Source of the DNA: Paracoccaceae bacterium
GTDB lineage: Bacteria; Pseudomonadota; Alphaproteobacteria; Rhizobiales; Stappiaceae
Assembly: GCA_002709505.1 (NCBI GenBank)
Contig: PARB01000106.1
Coordinates: 1-64,000 of the forward strand
DNA length: 64,000 nt
Direction: 5' to 3'
Below are positions 1-10,105 of this stretch, in pieces. Every line of letters begins with the position of its first letter. The first letter of the stretch is position 1. The notes beneath the pieces are model-generated. The model was not told the origin of the DNA. It searched no databases and saw only the letters and a list, made by a program, of their open reading frames with translations. The position numbers and the translations under genes were made by a program.

Positions 1-42
1 CGCCCGCACCCGTCCCGTCCGCCTGCCGGAGAGCCGCCGTGA
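1..42 (+). CDS. 3' end of an upstream gene, probably another PKS/NRPS gene (partial)
   Basis: Frame 1 is open from the first base and stops with TGA at 40-42. That stop overlaps the GTG start of the PKS gene in the arrangement GTGA, a typical sign of translational coupling in an operon. The 13 visible codons are rich in Pro, Arg and Gly, as at many megasynthase C-termini. No domain can be recognised. That it is a megasynthase is inferred only from its coupling to the PKS. Confidence 0.4.
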   Translation, partial: RPHPSRPPAGEPP

Positions 43-3000
43 CACATGATGCAACCGCCGGCGGCTGGCCGGAAACCTCCGTCGCCATTGTCGGCATGGC
101 CTGCCGCTTTCCCGGTGCCGACGACCTTGCGTCCTTCTGGGAGATGCTCTGCGCGGGGCGCGACACGCTTTATCGCGATCCGGCACGGGCGGAACCCGGC
201 TACCAGCCGGTGCGGGGCCTCGTCAGCGAGCCGGAAGGGTTCGACGCGGCCTTCTTCGGCATTCCCACGCGCGAAGCCTGCTATCTCAATCCGCAGCACC
301 GGCTGTTCCTGGAAACAAGTCATGCGGCGCTGGAAAACGCGGGCTGCGACCCGGCGCGTTTCGACGGCGCGATCTCCGTCTATGCCTCCTGCAGCCAGAA
401 CCGCTATCACGAACAGCTGTTACGGATCGTCCGCTCGCCGGCGGAACGCAGCCTCGCCTACAGTTCCAACTACGCCGAATATGCGCCGAGCCGGGTGTCC
501 TACCGCCTCGACCTGCGCGGCGAGAGCATGGCGGTTCAAACGGCGTGCTCCTCCTCGCTCGTCGGCATTCACATGGCCTGCCAGAGCCTTCTGTCCGGCA
601 GCAGCGACATGGCGCTTGCCGGCGGGGTGAACGTCGCGACGGCGGAGGAATTCGGCTACCGCACCCAGCAGGGCCTGCATTTCTCGCTGTCCGGCCACTG
701 CCGCCCCTTCGACGCCCGCGCCGACGGCATGGTTTCCAGCGACGGGGTCGGCGTGATCGCGTTGAAGCGGCTGGACGACGCGCTGGCCGACGGCGACCAC
801 ATCTGGGCGGTGATCCGCGGCTCCGCGATCAACAACGACGGTGCGTCGAAGATGAGCTACACCGCGCCCGGCATCGACGGACAGGCCGAGGCCATCGCGC
901 TGGCCCAGGAGCTCGCCGACGTGCATCCCGAGACCCTGTCCTATATCGAGGCGCATGGCACCGGCACGCTTCTCGGCGACCCGATCGAGGTCGAGGCGCT
1001 GACCCGCGCCTTTCGGCTGAAGACGCAGGCGACCGGGATCGCGGCACTCGGCTCCCTGAAGGCCAACATCGGCCACACGGTGCATGCCGCCGGCGTCGCC
1101 AGCACCATCAAGCTTGCGCTGATGATGCACCACCGCAAGATCCCGCCCGCCCCCGGTTTCGAAACGCCCAATCCGGCCATCGACTTCGCCAACACCCCCT
1201 TTCGCATTGCAACGGCGCTTGAAGACTGGAAGAGCCCCGGCGCTCCCCGCCGTGGCGGCGTCAGCGCGCTCGGCTTCGGCGGCACCAACGCCCATGCCAT
1301 TCTGGAGGAAGCGCCGCGACGGCCGGAGCGACGGCCGGCGAGCGCCCCCGCAGTCCTGCCGGTCTCCGCCAAGACCGCGACCGCGCTGAAACGGATGGTC
1401 GAGGCCCTTGGGTCGGCCTTCGCCGCCGACCCCGCGCTCGACATGCGCGACGCCTCGCGCACGCTGCGAGAGGGCCGCGGCACCCATTCCCATCGCGCGG
1501 CCGTCGTTGCAGCCGATGCCGCGGAGGCGGCACGGCGATTTTCCGCGCTTGCCCTGCCGCAAACGTCGTCCGGCTCCTGGATCGGACCGCTGTTCGTGTT
1601 CTCAGGCCGTGCCGGCGAGGAGGCCCCGGAAGAGCTTACCCTGTTCAGCGCGTTTCCGGCGTTTCGCGACGCCTGCGCCGAAGCCCGCGCCGCCCTGCCC
1701 GCGCGGATCGCCCCGGAACCGGCGGATGCCTTCGTGCTCGCCCATGCGCTCGTCAGCCTGTGGCGCGATCTTGGGGTTCTTCCCGGCGCCTGTGTCGGCA
1801 CCGGGCCGGGACGGCTGTTCGCCCGCCACCTGTTCGCGGCCAGCGTGGAAGGCGGCGCCGACCGCGCCGCGCGCCTTGCCCGAGCGGCGGCGGAGCTGGC
1901 GGAAGAGCCCCCCTATGCCGCGACCTGGTCGGCTGTCGTTGCCGACCTCGCCGATACGGCGCCTGCGGCCGGGGGCGATGGCCTGGACGCGCTGGGTGCT
2001 GCGCTGTGCCTTGCAGCGAGCCAAACCGGCGGCATCGCGCAAACCTCCCCGCGTCCGGCAGCAAGCGGCGCGGAGGCCGGGCCCGAGCGCGCGCAGCACC
2101 GCCCCCCGGTCACGAGTTTCGCCGCGCAGTGTCTTTCGCAGGGCCGACCGGTGATCGAAATCGGTCCGGACGGGTTCCTCTCCGACCTCCTGCGCATCGA
2201 GGCCACCCCGGCAACCCTGCCGCTGACCGTCTCCAGCCTTCCGACCGCGGGACCGCGCGCGGCCCATCGACCGGACGCAGTGTCCCATCTGCTCACCGCA
2301 GCCTCACGCCTCTGGCAGGCGGGCGCCCCGGTCCGCCTCGATGCGGTTCCGCAAGCGCCGGACGCCCGGCTGGTGCCGCTTCCCGGCTATGCCTATGAGC
2401 GCAAGACCTACGGGCTTGCCGATCTTGCCGCCGGTCGCGGATCGAAGCCGGCCGCGCCGGCGCCTCCCGCAGCCCCCGTCGAGGCGCGGGCAAGGCCTCG
2501 CAAGCAGGCCGACATCGCCGACTGGTTTCACCAGCGCCGCTGGCGCGCGACCCGCCTGCCCGCGCCGCATGACGCGGTTCGGCCGGACGAAGACACCACG
2601 TCACCGGCGCGGATCGTCTTCCTCCGCGACACGCCATGGCAACAGGCGCTGACCGCCGCCCTGCGACAGGCGGGAAAGGGCCGCGTGATCGAGGTCCGAC
2701 CCGGCACCGGCTATGAACGCCACGGCGAGGACCGCTTTACCATCGATCCCTCGGATACCGCCTCCCACAAGCGGCTCTTCGACGCGCTGGAGCGCGACGG
2801 GGTGGTGTGGCGCGACCTGCTCTATCTGTGGTGCGACACTGCCGCGCCCGACGCGGACCTTTCGGCCAGCGTGCTCTGGCCGCTGGCGCTTGCAAGAGCG
2901 CTTGGCGGGCGAGAGGACAAAAGCCGCCTGTGGTTCGTCACCCGCGGCGCGCAGCAGCTGCCGGGCGACACAGCCATCGCGGTCGAGGCCGCGCCGCTTG

Positions 3001-4316
3001 CCGCGCTGGCTCGGGTGATCGCGCAGGAGCACCGCACGCTCGACGCCCGCGCACTCGACCTGCCCCTATCCCTCAATGAAACCCCCGATGCGGGCGCGCG
3101 CGCCATCGGCTGGATCCGCGACGAGCTTCACGATCCCGGTGACGAGCGCGAGATCGCCTGGCGCGGCCGGGCGCGCTTCGTGCCCGAACTGGCGCCGGCG
3201 AGGCCAACAGACGCGGACGCCTCCGCCACGACGGGCATGCGCCTGTGGGGCGGCGGCGGCGCGCATGTAATCTTCGGGGGAACCGGCCATGTCGGGCTGG
3301 CGCTTGCCGGCGAGATCGCCCGGTCCGCACCCGATGCGCGGCTTTATCTCGCCTCGCGCTCGGGCAGGGTCCGCGACGCCGGGGCAGAGGCGCTGTCGGC
3401 GCTCTTGAACAGCGGCGCGCATGTCTCGCTGCACGCCGTCGATCTCGCCGATGGCGGCGCGGTGGCGGAGCTTTTGCGCAAGGCGCAGGCGGAGGGCGGC
3501 GCCATCGACACGGTGATCCATGCCGCCGGCGTGGTCGACACCGATCACCTGAAGTTCATCCGCGACACGCCGGCAACACTTGCTGCCGACCTCCTGGTGC
3601 CACATGTCGCGGGCATGCGCGCGCTCGCCGATGCGGTGGCGGAAACGCCCGTCGGCAAGGTGCTTCTGTGTTCCAGCCTGTCGTGTTTCGTCGGTGGGTT
3701 GAGCTACGGAGCGCATGCCGCAGGCCATCGCCACATGGATGCCGTGGCGCTGCGCGAAAGGCTCGCGGGCCGGTCGAAAGCCGCGTGGATCACGGTGAAC
3801 TACGACACATGGCACGTGCCGTCGCGCGAGAAGACCATCGGCGCGGGCGGCGCCGACTGGGCGATCGAACCGGCGGAGGGCGCGGCCGTGCTTGCGCTTG
3901 CAGCCGCTGCCGGCGCCGGCGAGCACGCGATTTCGACGGTGCCACTCGCCGACAGGCCGGGGCTCTCCGACACCGCGTCGTCGCGCCCTGCCCCGCCTTC
4001 GCCGCAAGGCGCGGCCGCGCCGCAGGACCGTGCACCGGTGCCAGCGCGCGCCACGGCTGCGGCGGAGGAGCCGGCCGCCGACGGTCTGGCCGCCATGGTC
4101 GCCGCCTGCTTCAAGGACGTGCTCGGCGCGGAAACGGTCGGCCCCCAGGACAATTTCTTCGAGCTTGGCGGGGAATCGCTGATGATGCTCGACGTGATCG
4201 ACCTGATCCGGCAGCGCAGCGGAATCTCGGTTCCCGCCGCCGATGCCTTCAAGGCGCTGACGGTGGCGGACATGACGCGCCTGTGCGAGGCGCAGGCGAC
4301 GACCAGGGAAACTTAG
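39..4316 (+). CDS. Type I polyketide synthase module: KS, degenerate AT, KR-like, ACP
   Basis: Single-module type I PKS of 1425 residues. The ketosynthase (about 10-435) keeps Cys170 in TACSSS, His306 in EAHGTGT and His346 in NIGHT, so it should condense. Residues 520-800 look like a remnant acyltransferase with its usual post-AT linker (LPGYAYERKTYG), but the GHSxG nucleophile motif reads GTGPG near residue 586, so no serine. The ketoreductase-like domain (about 1075-1300) has GGTGHVG for NADPH, but the catalytic Tyr position is His1226 and the Asn position is also His. The ACP has GGESL with Ser1380 as phosphopantetheine site. There is no thioesterase. The GTG start is preceded by GGAGAG and overlaps the upstream stop. 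The gene converges on the MFS gene with 9 bp between. A discrete AT elsewhere would be needed to load it. Confidence 0.9.
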   Translation: MTHDATAGGWPETSVAIVGMACRFPGADDLASFWEMLCAGRDTLYRDPARAEPGYQPVRGLVSEPEGFDAAFFGIPTREACYLNPQHRLFLETSHAALENAGCDPARFDGAISVYASCSQNRYHEQLLRIVRSPAERSLAYSSNYAEYAPSRVSYRLDLRGESMAVQTACSSSLVGIHMACQSLLSGSSDMALAGGVNVATAEEFGYRTQQGLHFSLSGHCRPFDARADGMVSSDGVGVIALKRLDDALADGDHIWAVIRGSAINNDGASKMSYTAPGIDGQAEAIALAQELADVHPETLSYIEAHGTGTLLGDPIEVEALTRAFRLKTQATGIAALGSLKANIGHTVHAAGVASTIKLALMMHHRKIPPAPGFETPNPAIDFANTPFRIATALEDWKSPGAPRRGGVSALGFGGTNAHAILEEAPRRPERRPASAPAVLPVSAKTATALKRMVEALGSAFAADPALDMRDASRTLREGRGTHSHRAAVVAADAAEAARRFSALALPQTSSGSWIGPLFVFSGRAGEEAPEELTLFSAFPAFRDACAEARAALPARIAPEPADAFVLAHALVSLWRDLGVLPGACVGTGPGRLFARHLFAASVEGGADRAARLARAAAELAEEPPYAATWSAVVADLADTAPAAGGDGLDALGAALCLAASQTGGIAQTSPRPAASGAEAGPERAQHRPPVTSFAAQCLSQGRPVIEIGPDGFLSDLLRIEATPATLPLTVSSLPTAGPRAAHRPDAVSHLLTAASRLWQAGAPVRLDAVPQAPDARLVPLPGYAYERKTYGLADLAAGRGSKPAAPAPPAAPVEARARPRKQADIADWFHQRRWRATRLPAPHDAVRPDEDTTSPARIVFLRDTPWQQALTAALRQAGKGRVIEVRPGTGYERHGEDRFTIDPSDTASHKRLFDALERDGVVWRDLLYLWCDTAAPDADLSASVLWPLALARALGGREDKSRLWFVTRGAQQLPGDTAIAVEAAPLAALARVIAQEHRTLDARALDLPLSLNETPDAGARAIGWIRDELHDPGDEREIAWRGRARFVPELAPARPTDADASATTGMRLWGGGGAHVIFGGTGHVGLALAGEIARSAPDARLYLASRSGRVRDAGAEALSALLNSGAHVSLHAVDLADGGAVAELLRKAQAEGGAIDTVIHAAGVVDTDHLKFIRDTPATLAADLLVPHVAGMRALADAVAETPVGKVLLCSSLSCFVGGLSYGAHAAGHRHMDAVALRERLAGRSKAAWITVNYDTWHVPSREKTIGAGGADWAIEPAEGAAVLALAAAAGAGEHAISTVPLADRPGLSDTASSRPAPPSPQGAAAPQDRAPVPARATAAAEEPAADGLAAMVAACFKDVLGAETVGPQDNFFELGGESLMMLDVIDLIRQRSGISVPAADAFKALTVADMTRLCEAQATTRET

Positions 4317-4325
4317 CCGGCTGTT

Positions 4326-5513
4326 TCAGCCCGGAACCGGCCGTCGCATGAAGACGACCGCCGCAACCAGCGCCACGGTGCCGAGCGTGCCAGCGACCAG
4401 CGCCAGCGGCGCAATGCCGGCGCGGTCGAGCACCGCGCCGCCGGCCCAGGCGCCTGCGGAAATTCCGATATAGATCAGCGAGCTGTTCAGCGACAGGATC
4501 AGCGTGCCGCCCCCGCCGGCATGGCTGAGCAGGCGGTGCTGGATCGGCACCAGATACATGTAGCTGGCGACGCCCCAGACGAAGCCGACGGCAACCGTCA
4601 GAAGCGCCGCATCGCGCCAGACGACGAGCGCGACGAGCAGCGTCGTCTGCGCCGCCACCGCGCCGACGAGCACCTGCAGCGGTCCGAGCCGGTCGGTCAG
4701 GATCCCGGTGGCGAAATTGCCGGCGAGCGCGCCGATGCCATAGGCGAGCAGCACCGCCGGGAGGATCGGCGCGCCGGCGTAGGTGGTTCCGTCGAGGATC
4801 ACGCTCACATAGGTGTAGACGACGAATTCCGACAGCACGATCAGGAAGGTCACCAGCAAGAGCCCGGCGGTTGCCGGGGTCAGCGCGCGCGAGGCGCTCG
4901 CAGCCGCCGGGGCAGCCGCGCCGACGGGCAAACGCCCCATCAGCGGCATCAGGATCGCCAGCGCGACGAGGCCGAGCACGACGACGAAATAAAACGCATA
5001 GCGCCAGTCGAACATCTGGCCGATCAGGGTCGCAAGCGGGATGCCGGCCGCCTGGGCGACGGTCATGCCGCCGAAGATCACCGCAAGGGCGGCGCCCTTG
5101 CGATGCGGCGGCACCAGATCTGAGGCAAGCGCGGTTGCCGCCGGCGTGAAGATCGCAGCCCCCAGCGCCGACACGATCCGGCCCGCCACGATCTGGTAAA
5201 AGCCCGTCGCCAGACCGCAGGCCAGATTGCCGGCGAGAAAAAAACCGATGGCCAGCAGGATCACCCGGCGCCGGTCGAGCCCGCGCAGCAGCCAGGCGCT
5301 GAGCGGCGCGAAGACGGCATAGGAGAGCGCATAGACCGACACGAGCTGCCCGGCGCGCGTCGCCGGGATCTCCAGGCTTGCGGCGATCTCGTTGAGCACG
5401 CCGATCACCACGAAGGTGTCCATGCCGATGGCCACCGCGCCCACGCCCAGCGCCGCGAGCAGCACCGTCTGGTGCGAGGCGCCGCGCAGGGTCTTCGATC
5501 CGCTACCGCTCAT
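4326..5513 (-). CDS. MFS transporter, drug:H+ antiporter type
   Basis: A 395-residue protein made almost entirely of hydrophobic segments, about 12 membrane spans, with the inter-helix loop between spans 2 and 3 reading RGLDRRRV. The family (AraJ/arabinose-efflux-like DHA1) exports small molecules by proton antiport. I place the start at the ATG at 5513 because GGAG lies 8 nt upstream; an in-frame ATG at 5540 would add nine residues without a better site. It is the last gene of the minus-strand chorismate-derived operon (53 nt after the preceding stop) and is convergent with the PKS, so export of the product or self-protection is the likely role. The substrate cannot be read from sequence. 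Confidence 0.85.
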   Translation of the reverse strand: MSGSGSKTLRGASHQTVLLAALGVGAVAIGMDTFVVIGVLNEIAASLEIPATRAGQLVSVYALSYAVFAPLSAWLLRGLDRRRVILLAIGFFLAGNLACGLATGFYQIVAGRIVSALGAAIFTPAATALASDLVPPHRKGAALAVIFGGMTVAQAAGIPLATLIGQMFDWRYAFYFVVVLGLVALAILMPLMGRLPVGAAAPAAASASRALTPATAGLLLVTFLIVLSEFVVYTYVSVILDGTTYAGAPILPAVLLAYGIGALAGNFATGILTDRLGPLQVLVGAVAAQTTLLVALVVWRDAALLTVAVGFVWGVASYMYLVPIQHRLLSHAGGGGTLILSLNSSLIYIGISAGAWAGGAVLDRAGIAPLALVAGTLGTVALVAAVVFMRRPVPG

Positions 5514-5566: not shown

Positions 5567-6139
5567 TCACCCCGCATGCAACTCTGGATAGGGATTCCCC
5601 ATCAGATTCCCGCAATAGCGCGGTTTCGGGCCATAGACGATCCAGGTGGTAACCACCTCGCCGATCACCCGCATAATCTCGAGCGCCTCGGGATGGTCGC
5701 GCGCGGAGCGGGTATAGGCAACGCCGGCCTCGTAGCGCCCGGCGAGCAACCCCTCCTCCACGACCGGTTTGGTGGTCTCGAAGGTTATCTCGCGCCAGTC
5801 GGCCTCGTTCACATAGCCGAGCGCGGGTTCCGGCACGCCCAGCGTTTGCGGCCTGGCGACATCGCGGCGCTTGACCAGCGCCATTTCCTGGGTCGGCAGG
5901 ATGAAGGTGTCGACCACATGGAGCCGGCCGAGAAACCGCTCGGTCACCTGATGCACGTTCAGATGCGCGCTGCACTGAAGCACATAGGAATTGCCCTCTT
6001 CCACCGCGCGGGCGGCGGCCGCGACCAGATCGTCGCACAGCGCGATGTCTGCCTCCTCGACCCCCTGGAACGCGAGATACCGCTTCAGCGCATGCTCGTG
6101 GCAGCTTCCCGCCGGGCCGAGCGTGTGAAAGCGGATCAT
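5567..6139 (-). CDS. Prephenate dehydratase-like protein without the TRF motif; candidate non-aromatising prephenate decarboxylase (BacA/SalX/AerD-like)
   Basis: 190 residues, the length of a lone PDT catalytic domain with no ACT regulatory domain. It opens with TLGPAGSCHEHALKRY, the usual TLGP(A/S)GS start of the family. Where dehydratases carry the catalytic Thr-Arg-Phe, this protein has VTTWIVYG, so the catalytic Arg is absent. That pattern is known from prephenate decarboxylases of natural-product pathways (BacA in bacilysin, SalX, AerD), which remove CO2 without aromatising the ring. The start overlaps the mutase stop as ATGA (6136-6139), so the two are coupled. True dehydratase activity looks unlikely; the substrate could be prephenate or 4-amino-4-deoxyprephenate. 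Confidence 0.75.
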   Translation of the reverse strand: MIRFHTLGPAGSCHEHALKRYLAFQGVEEADIALCDDLVAAAARAVEEGNSYVLQCSAHLNVHQVTERFLGRLHVVDTFILPTQEMALVKRRDVARPQTLGVPEPALGYVNEADWREITFETTKPVVEEGLLAGRYEAGVAYTRSARDHPEALEIMRVIGEVVTTWIVYGPKPRYCGNLMGNPYPELHAG

Positions 6140-6426
6140 CGCTCGATGATCCGGTCTTCCAGCGCGCAGGCCTCGCCGATGATCAGCCCGTAGAGCGCGC
6201 GGACGAACTCCGGATCGAGCCCCTGGTCCGCGCCCAGTTTCGCACAGCGGCTCTTCACCTCCTCCACCCGGTCGGGCTGCATCATGGCAATGCCATGGCG
6301 CCGCTTGGTGTGCGCCACCTGCGCGCATATCGTCAGGCGTTCGGCCACCAGCGTGACCAGCTTCTCGTCGATCGCGTTCAGCTGGTCACGATAGGGCGCC
6401 AGCAGGCTTTGCGTGTCGGCCGTCAT
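6136..6426 (-). CDS. AroQ-type chorismate mutase, possibly 4-amino-4-deoxychorismate mutase (PapB-like)
   Basis: 96 residues, all-helical AroQ fold. Compared by eye with the E. coli mutase domain, Arg13, Arg30, Lys41 and Arg53 match the residues that hold the substrate carboxylates and ether oxygen. The position of E. coli Glu52, which contacts the C4 hydroxyl, is Val54, and that of Asp48 is Gln50. A changed C4 pocket would fit a 4-amino substrate, as in PapB-type enzymes, but this is inference from a hand alignment. I chose the ATG at 6426 over one 14 codons earlier because of the purine-rich site before it and because homologues start just ahead of the first helix. It overlaps the preceding amidohydrolase gene by 41 nt and the next gene by 4 nt. 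Confidence 0.8.
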   Translation of the reverse strand: MTADTQSLLAPYRDQLNAIDEKLVTLVAERLTICAQVAHTKRRHGIAMMQPDRVEEVKSRCAKLGADQGLDPEFVRALYGLIIGEACALEDRIIER

Positions 6427-7450
6427 CCGTTCCGCTCTCCCTTGTGTCGGGCGCTGTATCGACCTCAAGCCCGATCAGACCCTTGGTGAAATGCGCGGCG
6501 CAGTCCTCCAGCGCGGAGAGCAGGTAGCCGCCCTCCTGCACCACGCAGACCGGCAGCCCGCTTTGACGAAGGATCCCGCCCACCCCGGCGAAGACCTCCG
6601 GCGACAGGTGCCAGCCGCCATGCGGATCGCCGTCGATCACGTCGTAGCCGAGCGACAGCACCAGCATCCCGGCGCCGGTTGCCACGGCCTGCTCCACGAG
6701 ACGGGACACCACCGCCAGATAGGCTTGCGCATCCGGCGGCGCGTCGAAGGCATGAAACACATGTACGGGAAGGGCCGGCGCCAGGTCCGGCTGATGCGGA
6801 AAGGCGACTTCGCCCGGGGCATGGCAACTGAATACCGCGATGTCGGGATGGGCGGCGAGACAATCCGTGGTGCCGTTTGCCGCGTGATAGTCGATGTCGA
6901 TCACCGCGACCCGCGCCCGCGTCTGGCGACGCAGCGCCAGCGCCGCGAGCGCCGCATTGTTGAGAAAACAATAGCCGCCGAAGAACCGCCGCCCGGCGTG
7001 ATGTCCGGGCGGACGGCACAGCGCATAGACATGGGTCGCCTCCCCGCGTCCGAGCGCGACAGCGGCGGCAACGGCCGCCGTCGCGGAGGTCAGGGCGCGG
7101 GCTGGAGAATCGGCCGCCACCGGCGTGTCCTGTTCGACGCCGGGCGCCGCGAAGACCCGGCCCTGCGGCGTGATCGCGGGAACGGCCGGATGCGACCCAT
7201 GCTCGAGAAACGCCAGATAGGCCGGGTCATGCGCCAGCGGCAAGAGGCTGCGCAGCATGCGGGTCGTGCCCTGCGAGATCTCCGCGCCGCGCGCCCGAGC
7301 CCCGGTCGCCCGCAGGATCCCGGAACGAATGCGCGCGGTGCGCTCGGCCACCTCGTTGGACGGCCTGAGCGTGCCGCGTGCGGTGCGGATCGCGCCCCGC
7401 GGTTCGGCGCGATGCGCCACGTCGAAGATCAGGAGGTCGGGCCGCGTCAT
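6386..7450 (-). CDS. Histone deacetylase-like / acetylpolyamine amidohydrolase family protein
   Basis: 354 residues of the zinc-dependent arginase/deacetylase fold. Visible landmarks: RPPGHHAGRR with the His150-His151 pair, a glycine-rich stretch with FLNNAA, zinc ligands Asp187 and His189 in DIDYH and Asp270 in LGYD, and Tyr309 in the EGGY motif that stabilises the transition state. All catalytic residues are present. Bacterial members remove acetyl or longer acyl groups from amines and polyamines. The start ATG overlaps the previous stop as ATGA (7447-7450). Its position beside a GNAT domain in one operon suggests it removes an acyl group added during biosynthesis; the true substrate is unknown. 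Confidence 0.85.
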   Translation of the reverse strand: MTRPDLLIFDVAHRAEPRGAIRTARGTLRPSNEVAERTARIRSGILRATGARARGAEISQGTTRMLRSLLPLAHDPAYLAFLEHGSHPAVPAITPQGRVFAAPGVEQDTPVAADSPARALTSATAAVAAAVALGRGEATHVYALCRPPGHHAGRRFFGGYCFLNNAALAALALRRQTRARVAVIDIDYHAANGTTDCLAAHPDIAVFSCHAPGEVAFPHQPDLAPALPVHVFHAFDAPPDAQAYLAVVSRLVEQAVATGAGMLVLSLGYDVIDGDPHGGWHLSPEVFAGVGGILRQSGLPVCVVQEGGYLLSALEDCAAHFTKGLIGLEVDTAPDTRESGTDDGRHAKPAGALS

Positions 7451-9453
7451 GCAAGGCTCCGCCGCATGCGCTGGCCGGCCGGGGCATATCCGGCGCGGGC
7501 ATAGAACGCCTGCAGCCGTTCAGCCTGCGGATGACCGGGCTTCGGCAGCGACACTTCCACCAGCGGCAAGCCCCGCCGTCGCGCGTCCTCATCGACCGCC
7601 GCAAGCAGCGCCGCGCCGACACCGCCGCCGCGCGCACCCGCGTCGACCCAGAGTTCCTGCAGCACGGCATAGTCCCCCGAGGTGCGCGCGGCCCGGACGA
7701 TGGAGACGAGCGCGACGCCGGCAATGGCGCCGCCCTCCGTTTCCGCGACGCGGATGAAGCCGAGGCTCTCGTCCTCGGCAAAGCCTTCGCAGACGGCGCG
7801 GGTCGCCCCGGCGCGGAACTGGGGCCCCGGCCCGCCGAGCTCGCGCAGCAGCGCCTCCACGGCCGCGGCCACGGCGCCGGCCTCGTCCTTGCGCGGCCGG
7901 CGGACCCTTGCCCCGGTGACGGCTTGCTCCGGGGGCGTGGCACCGGCATTCACCACCTGCGGGGCGCTTTCGGCCGCAGCGCCCGCCGCCTCGGCAACGG
8001 CGGCCATCGGCGCACGCGCCTTCAGCAGGATCTCGTCGAACTCGGCCTGCGGGTCGGAGAGATAGACGATCGCCCCGCCGCAGCCGATTGACACATGGCC
8101 CGGCGTGCAGACGACGGTGCGGATGACGATGTTGAGATCGACCGCGCCGGTCAGCGACAGAAAGCCGATGGTACCGGAATAGACGCCGCGCGCCGCGCCC
8201 TCCAGCCGGTCGATGATCTCGAGCGTGCGCACCTTTGGCGCGCCGGTCATCGAGCCGCCGGGGAAACAGGAGGCGATGCAGCTCACCGGGCTTTCGTCGG
8301 CGCGAAGCCGTCCGCGCACGACGGAGACGAGCTGATGCACCGTCTTGTAGCTTTCCACATGCATCAGGCTCGGCACATGCACGGAACCGGTCTCGCACAC
8401 CCGGCCGAGATCGTTGCGCATCAGATCGACGATCATCAGGTTTTCCGCACGGCTCTTCTCGTCGAGCCGCAGGCTTTCGGCAATCGCCGCGTCGCGGGCC
8501 GGATCGGGATCGCGCCGTTCCGTGCCCTTGATCGGCTTGGTCTCCACGGTTCCGTCCGGATCGATGCGCAGGAAGCGCTCAGGCGAAGAACTGGCAATCG
8601 CGAGATCGCCGAAGCGCAGGAAGGCGGAATAGGGCGCGGGGTTGCGGCGGCGCAGGATGCGATAGAGATCGAGCGGATCGAGATCCACATCCGCCTCGAT
8701 GGTGTTGGTGAGGCAGATCTCGTAGCTCTCGCCGGCGGCGATTTCCTCAAGACATTCCTCGATCCGGGCCAGATAGGCGTCGCGGTCATGACGCAGGCGG
8801 AACTGCGGCGCCTGTCTCGCCGGTCTTGCCGCGGGCGGCGCCGGTTCGCGAACCCGCCCGAGCGCGTCAATCGTCTCGTCCACCCATCGCTGCGCGGCAC
8901 GGCGATCCGCCGGATCACCGCGGCCGGCCAGGGCGATGGCATGGACGCAGCCGTCACGGTGATCGAAGGCCAGCAGGCGGTCGGCAAACAGGAAGGCTGC
9001 GTCCGGCGTCGGCGCCTCATGAGCGGCCGCACCGCAGGTCAGGCGCTTGAGTTCATAACCGAAATAACCGACATGCCCGCCGACGAAGGGGCAGTCCAGA
9101 CCGGGCGGCGGATCAAGGACGGGCGCCCTGTGATCCCCGTCCAGATAATCGAACACAGACGTCCCGATCGGCCGGGGCGCTCCGTTGCACCCGGTCCGGA
9201 TCTCGCCGCACTGGCCGCCGTCGCGAAAGATCACGGAACGGGCATGCGGACCGGTGGCATCGCCCAAGAAGGAGAACCGCGACAGCCCCGGAACCAGGAG
9301 GCTGCTATCGAGCCAGAAGGCCTCTCTGGAAGCGCCGAAGAGATGGACGAACGCGGCCTCCGCCGAGACCGAGAGGGCCTGGCTGCGCCAAACGACCTCG
9401 AACGCGCCGCTGTGCGTGTCCGCGGTCTCGGGCGGATCGATCACGTCAGCCAT
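7447..9453 (-). CDS. pabB: Aminodeoxychorismate synthase component I fused to a C-terminal GNAT acetyltransferase domain
   Basis: 668 residues. Residues 1-490 are a chorismate-binding (TrpE/PabB) domain: SSSPERFL, PIKGT with Lys309, RNDLGRVC and FPGGSMTGAPK. PIKGT, rather than the PIAGT of anthranilate synthase, marks formation of 4-amino-4-deoxychorismate. Residues about 510-668 form a GNAT domain with a RGGGVGAALL acetyl-CoA loop. Many proteobacterial PabB proteins are fused to PabC lyase instead, so the GNAT fusion is unusual. The start is the ATG at 9453, one base after the pabA stop, with GGAGGGGG just upstream. It pairs with the adjacent amidotransferase, which supplies ammonia. Confidence 0.88.
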   Translation of the reverse strand: MADVIDPPETADTHSGAFEVVWRSQALSVSAEAAFVHLFGASREAFWLDSSLLVPGLSRFSFLGDATGPHARSVIFRDGGQCGEIRTGCNGAPRPIGTSVFDYLDGDHRAPVLDPPPGLDCPFVGGHVGYFGYELKRLTCGAAAHEAPTPDAAFLFADRLLAFDHRDGCVHAIALAGRGDPADRRAAQRWVDETIDALGRVREPAPPAARPARQAPQFRLRHDRDAYLARIEECLEEIAAGESYEICLTNTIEADVDLDPLDLYRILRRRNPAPYSAFLRFGDLAIASSSPERFLRIDPDGTVETKPIKGTERRDPDPARDAAIAESLRLDEKSRAENLMIVDLMRNDLGRVCETGSVHVPSLMHVESYKTVHQLVSVVRGRLRADESPVSCIASCFPGGSMTGAPKVRTLEIIDRLEGAARGVYSGTIGFLSLTGAVDLNIVIRTVVCTPGHVSIGCGGAIVYLSDPQAEFDEILLKARAPMAAVAEAAGAAAESAPQVVNAGATPPEQAVTGARVRRPRKDEAGAVAAAVEALLRELGGPGPQFRAGATRAVCEGFAEDESLGFIRVAETEGGAIAGVALVSIVRAARTSGDYAVLQELWVDAGARGGGVGAALLAAVDEDARRRGLPLVEVSLPKPGHPQAERLQAFYARAGYAPAGQRMRRSLA

Positions 9454-9454
9454 C

Positions 9455-10105
9455 TCAGACCCCCTCCGGCTCGAGATGCGCGGGCGCGACCCGCCCCATC
9501 CGCGCGGCGGGACGGGCACCGGCGGGCAGGACAAAATTCGCCAAAAGCGCGGCGCCATGTTCGGAGCAGATCGATTCTGGATGAAACTGCACTCCCCGCA
9601 ACGGCCGGCTGCGATGGCGCACCGCCATGATCAGCCCCTCGCGGGTTTCGGCAATGCTTTCCAGACAGGCGGGCAGCGGCGGACGGGCGATCAAGGAATG
9701 ATAGCGCGTCACGTCGAAGGCGGCCGGCAAGCCTGCGAACAGGGGATCGGGGCGGCAGTGAATGCGGCTGATGCGCCCGTGAAAGGGTTCGGGCGCCCGC
9801 CCGACATCGCCACCGAAATGCGCGACAAGACATTGATGCCCCAGGCAGATGCCAAGAACGGGACACTCCGCATACCGCAGGACATCCATGGAGGACCCGA
9901 CATCGGCCGCGCGCTGCGGCGTGCCCGGCCCCGGCGACAGGATGATCCGGCGATGCGGGATCTTGCGGATCTCGCGCCAGGGAACCGAATTGGGAAGAAC
10001 CACCGGCTCTTCTCCGGCCGCTTCCGCAACCATCTGCGCCACGTTGAAGGTGAAGGAATCGTAGTTGTCGACAATGATCGTCCCGCCAGCAGGATTGATA
10101 GACAT
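9455..10105 (-). CDS. pabA: Aminodeoxychorismate/anthranilate synthase component II, glutamine amidotransferase
   Basis: 216-residue class I glutamine amidotransferase that supplies ammonia to component I. It has the DNYDSFTFN start, the LSPGPGTP oxyanion loop, the nucleophile Cys in GICLGHQ, and His-Pro-Glu in QFHPES. It is the first gene of the minus-strand operon and ends one base before pabB. No second PabB or TrpE lies in the window, so it most likely serves the fused partner. Possible promoter sequence lies upstream around 10190-10235. Confidence 0.88.
   Translation of the reverse strand: MSINPAGGTIIVDNYDSFTFNVAQMVAEAAGEEPVVLPNSVPWREIRKIPHRRIILSPGPGTPQRAADVGSSMDVLRYAECPVLGICLGHQCLVAHFGGDVGRAPEPFHGRISRIHCRPDPLFAGLPAAFDVTRYHSLIARPPLPACLESIAETREGLIMAVRHRSRPLRGVQFHPESICSEHGAALLANFVLPAGARPAARMGRVAPAHLEPEGV

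Follow-up and report, generated by a model that had tools for sequence, protein, structure and literature searches.

The 64,000-nucleotide window analysed here opens contig PARB01000106.1 (C106 of genome G000, assembly GCA_002709505.1) of an alphaproteobacterium of the Stappiaceae and carries a six-gene operon on its minus strand. Judged by gene content and order, this operon appears to be the front-end module of amiclenomycin biosynthesis in a proteobacterium, with other neighbours replacing the known finishing genes. It very probably encodes the formation of a non-aromatic 4-amino-cyclohexadienyl building block. The ring chemistry is already known from amiclenomycin, and the finishing steps in Stappia look different.

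In transcription order the operon comprises pabA, pabB fused to a GNAT acetyltransferase, a gene of the histone deacetylase (HDAC) type, an AroQ-type mutase gene, a gene for a prephenate dehydratase (PDT)-like protein and an exporter gene of the major facilitator superfamily (MFS). The pabA, pabB, mutase and PDT-like genes are each open from ATG to TGA, and the deacetylase gene is complete. Spacing is tight, with a 1-nt gap between pabA and pabB, overlaps of 4 nt (pabB/deacetylase), 41 nt (deacetylase/mutase) and 4 nt (mutase/PDT-like), and 53 nt from the PDT-like gene to the exporter. PabA (9455–10105), the glutamine amidotransferase subunit of aminodeoxychorismate synthase, matches PF00117 (E 4.1e-46) and TIGR00566 above its cut-off. 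The pabB-GNAT fusion (7447–9453), component I of the same enzyme followed by a C-terminal N-acetyltransferase, matches PF00425 (E 6.8e-86), PF00583 (E 3e-8) and TIGR00553 (369 against a cut-off of 328.4), and PIKGT can be read in its sequence. An earlier note on this DNA had placed PabA, a PIKGT-type PabB, an AroQ-type mutase and a PDT-like protein without the TRF motif in one coupled operon, with which coordinates, spacing and family scores all agree; it had passed over the deacetylase gene (6386–7450), the GNAT domain on PabB and the exporter (4326–5513). Compared with the relative G010, the encoded proteins are 84–98% identical, and the ratios of nonsynonymous to synonymous substitution rates (dN/dS) are 0.04 for the mutase, 0.107 for the PDT-like protein, 0.11 for PabA, 0.18 for PabB, 0.17 for the GNAT, 0.26 for the deacetylase and 0.13 for the exporter. 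The intact operon genes are under purifying selection. As the same units also recur in the same order in other genera, the operon is no chance arrangement but real and coherent.

A counterpart has been described in the stravidin cluster, which the accessible text of PMC13336041 and PMC13111796 places between two streptavidin genes ~36 kb apart and credits to a 2020 publication by Montaser and Kelleher. Across 346 Actinomycetota genomes sampled from the whole phylum, no avidin-family match came up. Nine large genomes of that sample carry chaplin genes; G232 has six chaplin matches, and its genus, including G870 and G873, is taken to be Streptomyces on this basis. Within the genus an avidin match was found in 10 of 392 genomes, two of which (G870 and G873, the only two opened) have paired genes, spaced 36.4 and 48.5 kb, respectively. 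Between these pairs lie a fused pabAB and genes for a GNAT, a deacetylase, a mutase and a PDT-like protein in the same order as in the window. Identities to the window in the two loci are 37 and 40% for the GNAT, 38 and 40% for the deacetylase, 51 and 48% for the mutase and 45% in both cases for the PDT-like protein. It is this gene order, together with the identities, that points to the same front-end module, and the earlier note was mistaken in holding that no pathway with this combination had been described. A literature search over titles, abstracts and selected passages, to which most subscription literature was closed, returned no description of the gene set beyond Streptomyces.

The sta cluster, known from Streptomyces avidinii and its relatives and represented here by the G870 and G873 loci, resembles the operon in pabA/pabB, GNAT, HDAC-type hydrolase, PapB-type mutase and TRF-less PDT-like protein. 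Aminodeoxychorismate synthase, aminodeoxychorismate mutase and the putative decarboxylase thus occur together in the window, and the GNAT and deacetylase lie between pabB and the mutase, as in both streptavidin-flanked loci. In sta-type loci, however, pabA and pabB are fused and the GNAT is a separate frame, whereas in the window the GNAT is fused to PabB. The front genes of G870 and G873 are succeeded by HMGL/LeuA, FemAB-like, aconitase, isopropylmalate dehydrogenase and class IV aminotransferase genes. Leucine-type extension enzymes, a class IV aminotransferase, a FemAB-like ligase and a class III aminotransferase that by eye resembles BioA follow or flank the sta-type front end, in contrast to the nonribosomal peptide synthetase/polyketide synthase (NRPS/PKS) half found in Stappia. 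Six queries (LeuA, FemAB-like, isopropylmalate dehydrogenase, class IV and class III aminotransferases, aconitase) had no match by tblastn at 1e-5 in the 64-kb window or in 14 other fetched stretches, as distinct from whole genomes, of Stappia, Bradyrhizobium, Lonsdalea and two Actinomycetota metagenome-assembled genomes (MAGs). Montaser and Kelleher reportedly traced the amiclenomycin warhead back to chorismate through a route parallel to that of p-aminophenylalanine, in which a decarboxylation is said to leave the ring non-aromatic and to come before one-carbon extension.

The mutase (6136–6426) has the AroQ fold and matches CM_2 at 71.1 bits. Its score against TIGR01803 (80.1 bits) exceeds the cut-off of 73.35, and both parts of the MMQPxR / E(A,T)CxLE signature are present, which marks it as a predicted PapB-type 4-amino-4-deoxychorismate mutase. 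In the alignment with E. coli AroQ, Asp48 is replaced by Gln and Glu52 by Val, as the earlier note had read them, and Gln88 by Glu. These three letters are shared by all ten aligned mutases of such loci, eight of them proteobacterial (two from partly broken loci) and two from Actinomycetota MAGs. In L090, a Streptomyces pap locus where pabAB is accompanied by a prephenate-dehydrogenase-like gene, the mutase has Gln48, Glu88 and Ile at 52, and the housekeeping AroQ of Stappia retains Asp48 and Glu52. TIGR01803 matched at 1e-10 in 49 of the 346 Actinomycetota genomes, at 52 places. Among the 25 of these looked at, pabAB adjoins the mutase in three of three with the MMQ motif versus one of 22 without it; G101, a further place of the sample, has both motif and pabAB. 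The shared active-site letters and the linkage of motif and pabAB assign the mutase, as far as sequence can, to the aminodeoxychorismate mutase type.

The PDT-like protein (5567–6139, 190 aa) combines a PDT catalytic fold with the loss of the TRF motif and leaves no room for an ACT domain. No Pfam or NCBIfam model matched it, and PDB sequence searches with the protein or its profile gave nothing useful. In structure comparison, an AlphaFold model built from 30 relatives (mean pLDDT 89.6) has prephenate dehydratases as its top matches, namely 3mwb (Z 15.4, 183 residues, root-mean-square deviation 4.8; Foldseek E 5.7e-11) and 2qmw (Z 12.4), and the best binding protein reaches Z 10.7. The TRF position aligns to TTW, with Thr kept and Arg lost; BacA-type proteins read MxW there. 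The prephenate decarboxylases BacA, SalX and AerD (bacilysin, salinosporamide A and the aeruginosides, respectively) are mentioned side by side in PMC10157211; the comparison here covers BacA-type proteins. These resemble the PDT-like protein in their short PDT fold, absent TRF motif, TLGPxG opening and Trp in place of the TRF Phe, but differ in identity (16% in profile alignment) and form their own clade, and the substrate of the PDT-like protein would be the 4-amino analogue. Profile comparison gave E 2.9e-14 against five BacA-type proteins, one of which is encoded in L075, a bac-like operon that also contains cupin and SDR genes, and E 0.1 against a profile of just two rows, made from the two true PDTs of the window's genome. 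All five BacA-type loci examined (L075–L079) carry an annotated Dabb-family (A/B barrel) gene no more than a few genes away from the BacA homologue.

In a tree of 40 proteins, midpoint-rooted and with long branches, the nine proteins from proteobacterial operons cluster together (100/100), and this cluster joins two streptavidin-flanked and seven Actinomycetota MAG proteins (94/86). Fifteen other relatives stand apart from this assemblage (97/91), and the five BacA-type proteins form a distant, separate group (100/99); SalX and AerD were left out. The earlier note's comparison with non-aromatising decarboxylases is thus upheld by the PDT fold, the missing TRF motif and the BacA profile match but not by the phylogeny, where the protein lies outside the BacA clade. 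Decarboxylation without aromatisation is the reaction predicted from sequence and model.

The presence of both an acetyltransferase and a deacetylase suggests that an intermediate is protected by N-acetylation. A single frame encodes PabB and the GNAT in the window, L020, L028, L036 and L038, whereas G873 has separate frames. Since the GNAT is fused to PabB in proteobacterial loci, its substrate would be the PabB product. The predicted zinc deacetylase (PF00850, E 1.6e-47) is of the histone-deacetylase/acetylpolyamine-amidohydrolase type, with HDAC6 and acetylpolyamine amidohydrolase as solved relatives. Its His-His, Asp-x-His, Asp and Tyr positions, which we take to be catalytic, are kept in all seven aligned proteins. 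According to the accessible text of PMC13336041, stravidin 8 holds an N-acetyl-amiclenomycin residue; its acetyl group is probably on the ring amine, as amiclenomycin's other amine is in a peptide bond.

Synteny with the streptavidin-flanked clusters, which fit the stravidin/amiclenomycin cluster, favours a chain from chorismate to an amino-cyclohexadiene, and this part of the earlier proposal stands. PabA and PabB would convert chorismate to 4-amino-4-deoxychorismate, and the fused GNAT would N-acetylate the ring amine, probably at or soon after this stage. The mutase would give (N-acetyl-)4-amino-4-deoxyprephenate, which the PDT-like protein would decarboxylate with retention of the amine and without oxidation, yielding 4-amino(acetamido)-cyclohexadienyl pyruvate. 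A transaminase from outside the operon would turn this keto acid into an amino acid, the deacetylase would release the amine, and the MFS protein would export the product. In Streptomyces, the keto acid would be lengthened by one carbon by leucine-type enzymes to form amiclenomycin. As the one-carbon extension genes were not found beside the operon, a shorter product is expected in Stappia. This may be the shorter amino acid itself, or a beta-hydroxy-gamma-amino acid formed via an adenylation-peptidyl carrier protein (A-PCP), a ketosynthase-ketoreductase-acyl carrier protein (KS-KR-ACP) and a thioesterase.

The ring might instead become aromatic. The PDT-like protein could act as a dehydratase-type aromatase, releasing CO2 and the amine or acetamide to leave phenylpyruvate, or a dehydrogenase from outside the operon could produce p-aminophenylpyruvate. 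The PDT fold, the retained Thr of TRF and a PapB-type mutase like that of p-aminophenylalanine loci would all suit such an outcome. The PapA/PapB/PapC pathway of chloramphenicol and pristinamycin type likewise has an aminodeoxychorismate synthase and a mutase with near-identical active-site letters, but it proceeds through the aromatising dehydrogenase PapC, where the window has a PDT-like protein, a GNAT and a deacetylase. PapC is present in all four pabAB-linked loci among the 25 TIGR01803 loci, and these loci have no GNAT, HDAC or PDT-like match within the 14–16 kb fetched. A PapC query at 1e-3 had no match in the window, bearing out the earlier expectation of a different third step, nor in 11 Stappia, Bradyrhizobium and Lonsdalea loci, the streptavidin-flanked stretches, L091, L092, L043 or L039. 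Moreover, losing the amine would waste the aminodeoxychorismate step, and the same gene set is found in a cluster whose assigned product has a non-aromatic ring. An aromatic product is accordingly regarded as improbable. Still less probable is a non-catalytic PDT-like protein, serving as a ligand-binding or regulatory protein while the mutase product goes into use unaltered. Periplasmic-type binding proteins have this fold too, one relative is encoded within an amino-acid ABC transporter operon, and in two Actinomycetota MAGs the gene is not beside the pab-mutase genes. Prephenate dehydratases nevertheless score above the best binding protein in structure comparison, the gene lies next to the mutase gene in both streptavidin-flanked loci and in 13 of the 14 proteobacterial ones (the exception, L066, has lost its mutase), and its dN/dS is low. 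The pab genes serving folate alone, which would have undone the earlier proposal, is also unlikely: G000, G005 and G010 each have, besides the operon, two more PF00425 places (in G000 a contig end truncates one of them) and a separate CM_2 gene, and G011, where the operon is reduced to a remnant, still has two PF00425 genes and one CM_2.

A different role for the GNAT and deacetylase is quite possible, if somewhat short of probable, namely self-resistance acting on the finished product, which would be acetylated to an inactive form and freed on or before export. It departs from the biosynthetic chain only in where these two enzymes are placed, and both roles could hold together. Acetylation is a common resistance strategy, and the acetylated residue of stravidin 8 would fit; the fusion of the GNAT to PabB in proteobacterial loci and the position of both genes ahead of the mutase wherever they are present speak for an early step instead. 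Several observations weigh against the chain to a non-aromatic amino-cyclohexadiene, or parts of it. The profile of the PDT-like protein matches DUF6421-linked relatives (4.4e-20) better than the BacA set, the Thr kept in TTW makes a dehydratase-like step possible, and relatives outside the operon group belong to an amino-acid ABC transporter operon or neighbour DUF6421 genes. With relatives in such contexts, the PDT fold is not by itself enough to define the reaction. The deacetylase gene is broken in two Bradyrhizobium strains (L033:9062–9668, L034:8786–9669) where the mutase, PDT-like and exporter genes look whole, and one of these strains also has a split pabB. Finally, an inactive-looking acyltransferase (AT) makes the polyketide step uncertain.

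The comparative search that the earlier note had called for recovered the gene set in Bradyrhizobium, Lonsdalea, Stappia relatives and the streptavidin-flanked loci. In a genome scan, relatives of the PDT-like protein turned up at 36 loci. In seven of 14 proteobacterial loci the order pabA-pabB-GNAT-HDAC-mutase-PDT-MFS runs without visible break (the window, L020, L031, L028, L032, L036, L038). The DNA of L028 is 99.6% identical to that of L032, and three bases of L036 are unread. The other seven loci (L033–L035, L037, which lies at a contig end, L040, L048 and L066) are broken or partial, and the module, found in Bradyrhizobium, Sinorhizobium and Lonsdalea, is often decayed. The MFS gene follows the PDT-like gene in all 14; in the window it is predicted to encode a Cmx/CmrA-like exporter (PF07690, E 1.7e-35; NF033135, 170 bits, below the cut-off of 400). 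The PDT-like query matched 17 of 101 relatives at 1e-3, and within the genus a full-length protein occurs in three of 14 genomes (the window's own included; 91–100% identity), with a remnant in one. That remnant, in G011 (L022:16120–18154), retains the exporter (89%) and scraps of PDT-like, pyridoxal phosphate (PLP) enzyme, thioesterase, PCP and ACP genes at the same place, so both halves of the cluster were once together there and were then lost. Among 385 Alphaproteobacteria drawn over the class, the query at 1e-20 had four matches, the window's own and three at 32–37%, the latter with no pab or mutase match within their 3.5-kb loci. The operon is common to rhizobia and the tree-associated enterobacterium Lonsdalea (L032–L038, L040), and a similar sharing is reported for the gibberellin operon in the accessible text of PMC6278637.

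Two Actinomycetota MAGs (G101, and G104, a Solirubrobacterales) hold the pab, GNAT, HDAC and mutase genes together, with the PDT-like gene elsewhere in the genome. A lysine/ornithine-oxygenase-like frame lies near these genes (L091:4643–10366 of G101:C1; L092:1–5336), and in G101 a P450 and a flavin-monooxygenase/PQQ-type frame stand behind them. These loci perhaps lead to a third kind of product. More distant PDT-like relatives include one at 37% (tblastn) inside an amino-acid ABC transporter operon on a Variovorax paradoxus VAI-C plasmid (L029:3844–7354), with no pab or mutase gene annotated nearby. Another group, at ~23–28% identity, is followed by a DUF6421 gene in a relative from the window's own genus (L027:9461–11287) and in Pantoea (L030:8715–11736), where an ATP-grasp gene precedes it; the pair looks like an uncharacterised small pathway.

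Convergent with the operon, a PKS module of KS, degenerate AT, KR and ACP (39–4316, plus strand; PF00109/PF02801/PF08659/PF00550) fills the contig start. It has no PF00698 (AT) match, and its AT-like stretch lacks GHS, which we take to be the AT motif; these features suggest that an AT is supplied in trans. The complete locus is found in Stappia stellulata SN27-3 (L019/L031) and G010 (L020). There, an A-PCP gene, a thioesterase gene and a class V PLP enzyme gene (nearest EgtE/SufS) lie ahead of the PKS (L019/L020), companions that in the window fall beyond the contig start. The polyketide extension put forward in the earlier note is unproven and fits only the Stappia genomes, as KS and KR queries had no match in the Bradyrhizobium and Lonsdalea loci. 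An NRPS A domain is within the fetched stretch in nine of the 13 proteobacterial loci besides the window, including all four of Lonsdalea, once an L048 match with letters not of the amino-acid type is dropped. The Lonsdalea gene resembles EntF but scores far below the cut-off of that model (555.7 against 2400). Pocket codes, read by alignment at what are presumably the standard positions, are DAFWVGGDF in Stappia, DMLVLGVFA in Lonsdalea and four different ones in Bradyrhizobium. An NRPS partner shared by all operons is unsupported, the codes varying by genus.

That the Stappia A-PCP takes up the amino acid and the KS-KR extends it is speculative. On a wider and rather doubtful proposal, a mobile, N-acetyl-protected amino-cyclohexadiene module would serve Actinomycetota and plant-associated and Stappia Proteobacteria in making a non-homologated 4-aminocyclohexadienyl amino acid, which in Stappia an A-PCP with an extra pocket Asp and an AT-less KS-KR would turn into a statine-like product.

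Non-aromatic rings derived from shikimate are rare warheads, and the Streptomyces antibiotic whose front-end genes are matched here acts against the synthesis of the vitamin biotin. In stravidins the amiclenomycin ring modifies the cofactor of BioA by becoming aromatic. The accessible text of PMC13336041 describes stravidins as blocking BioA through covalent modification of its cofactor. With the front-end genes occurring beyond Streptomyces, beside other finishing genes, new relatives of this warhead are to be expected in Stappia and plant-associated bacteria. The loci also provide small enzyme sets for studying non-aromatising decarboxylation, and the GNAT fused to the first enzyme, with its conserved deacetylase, yields a testable prediction on how a labile amine may be handled.

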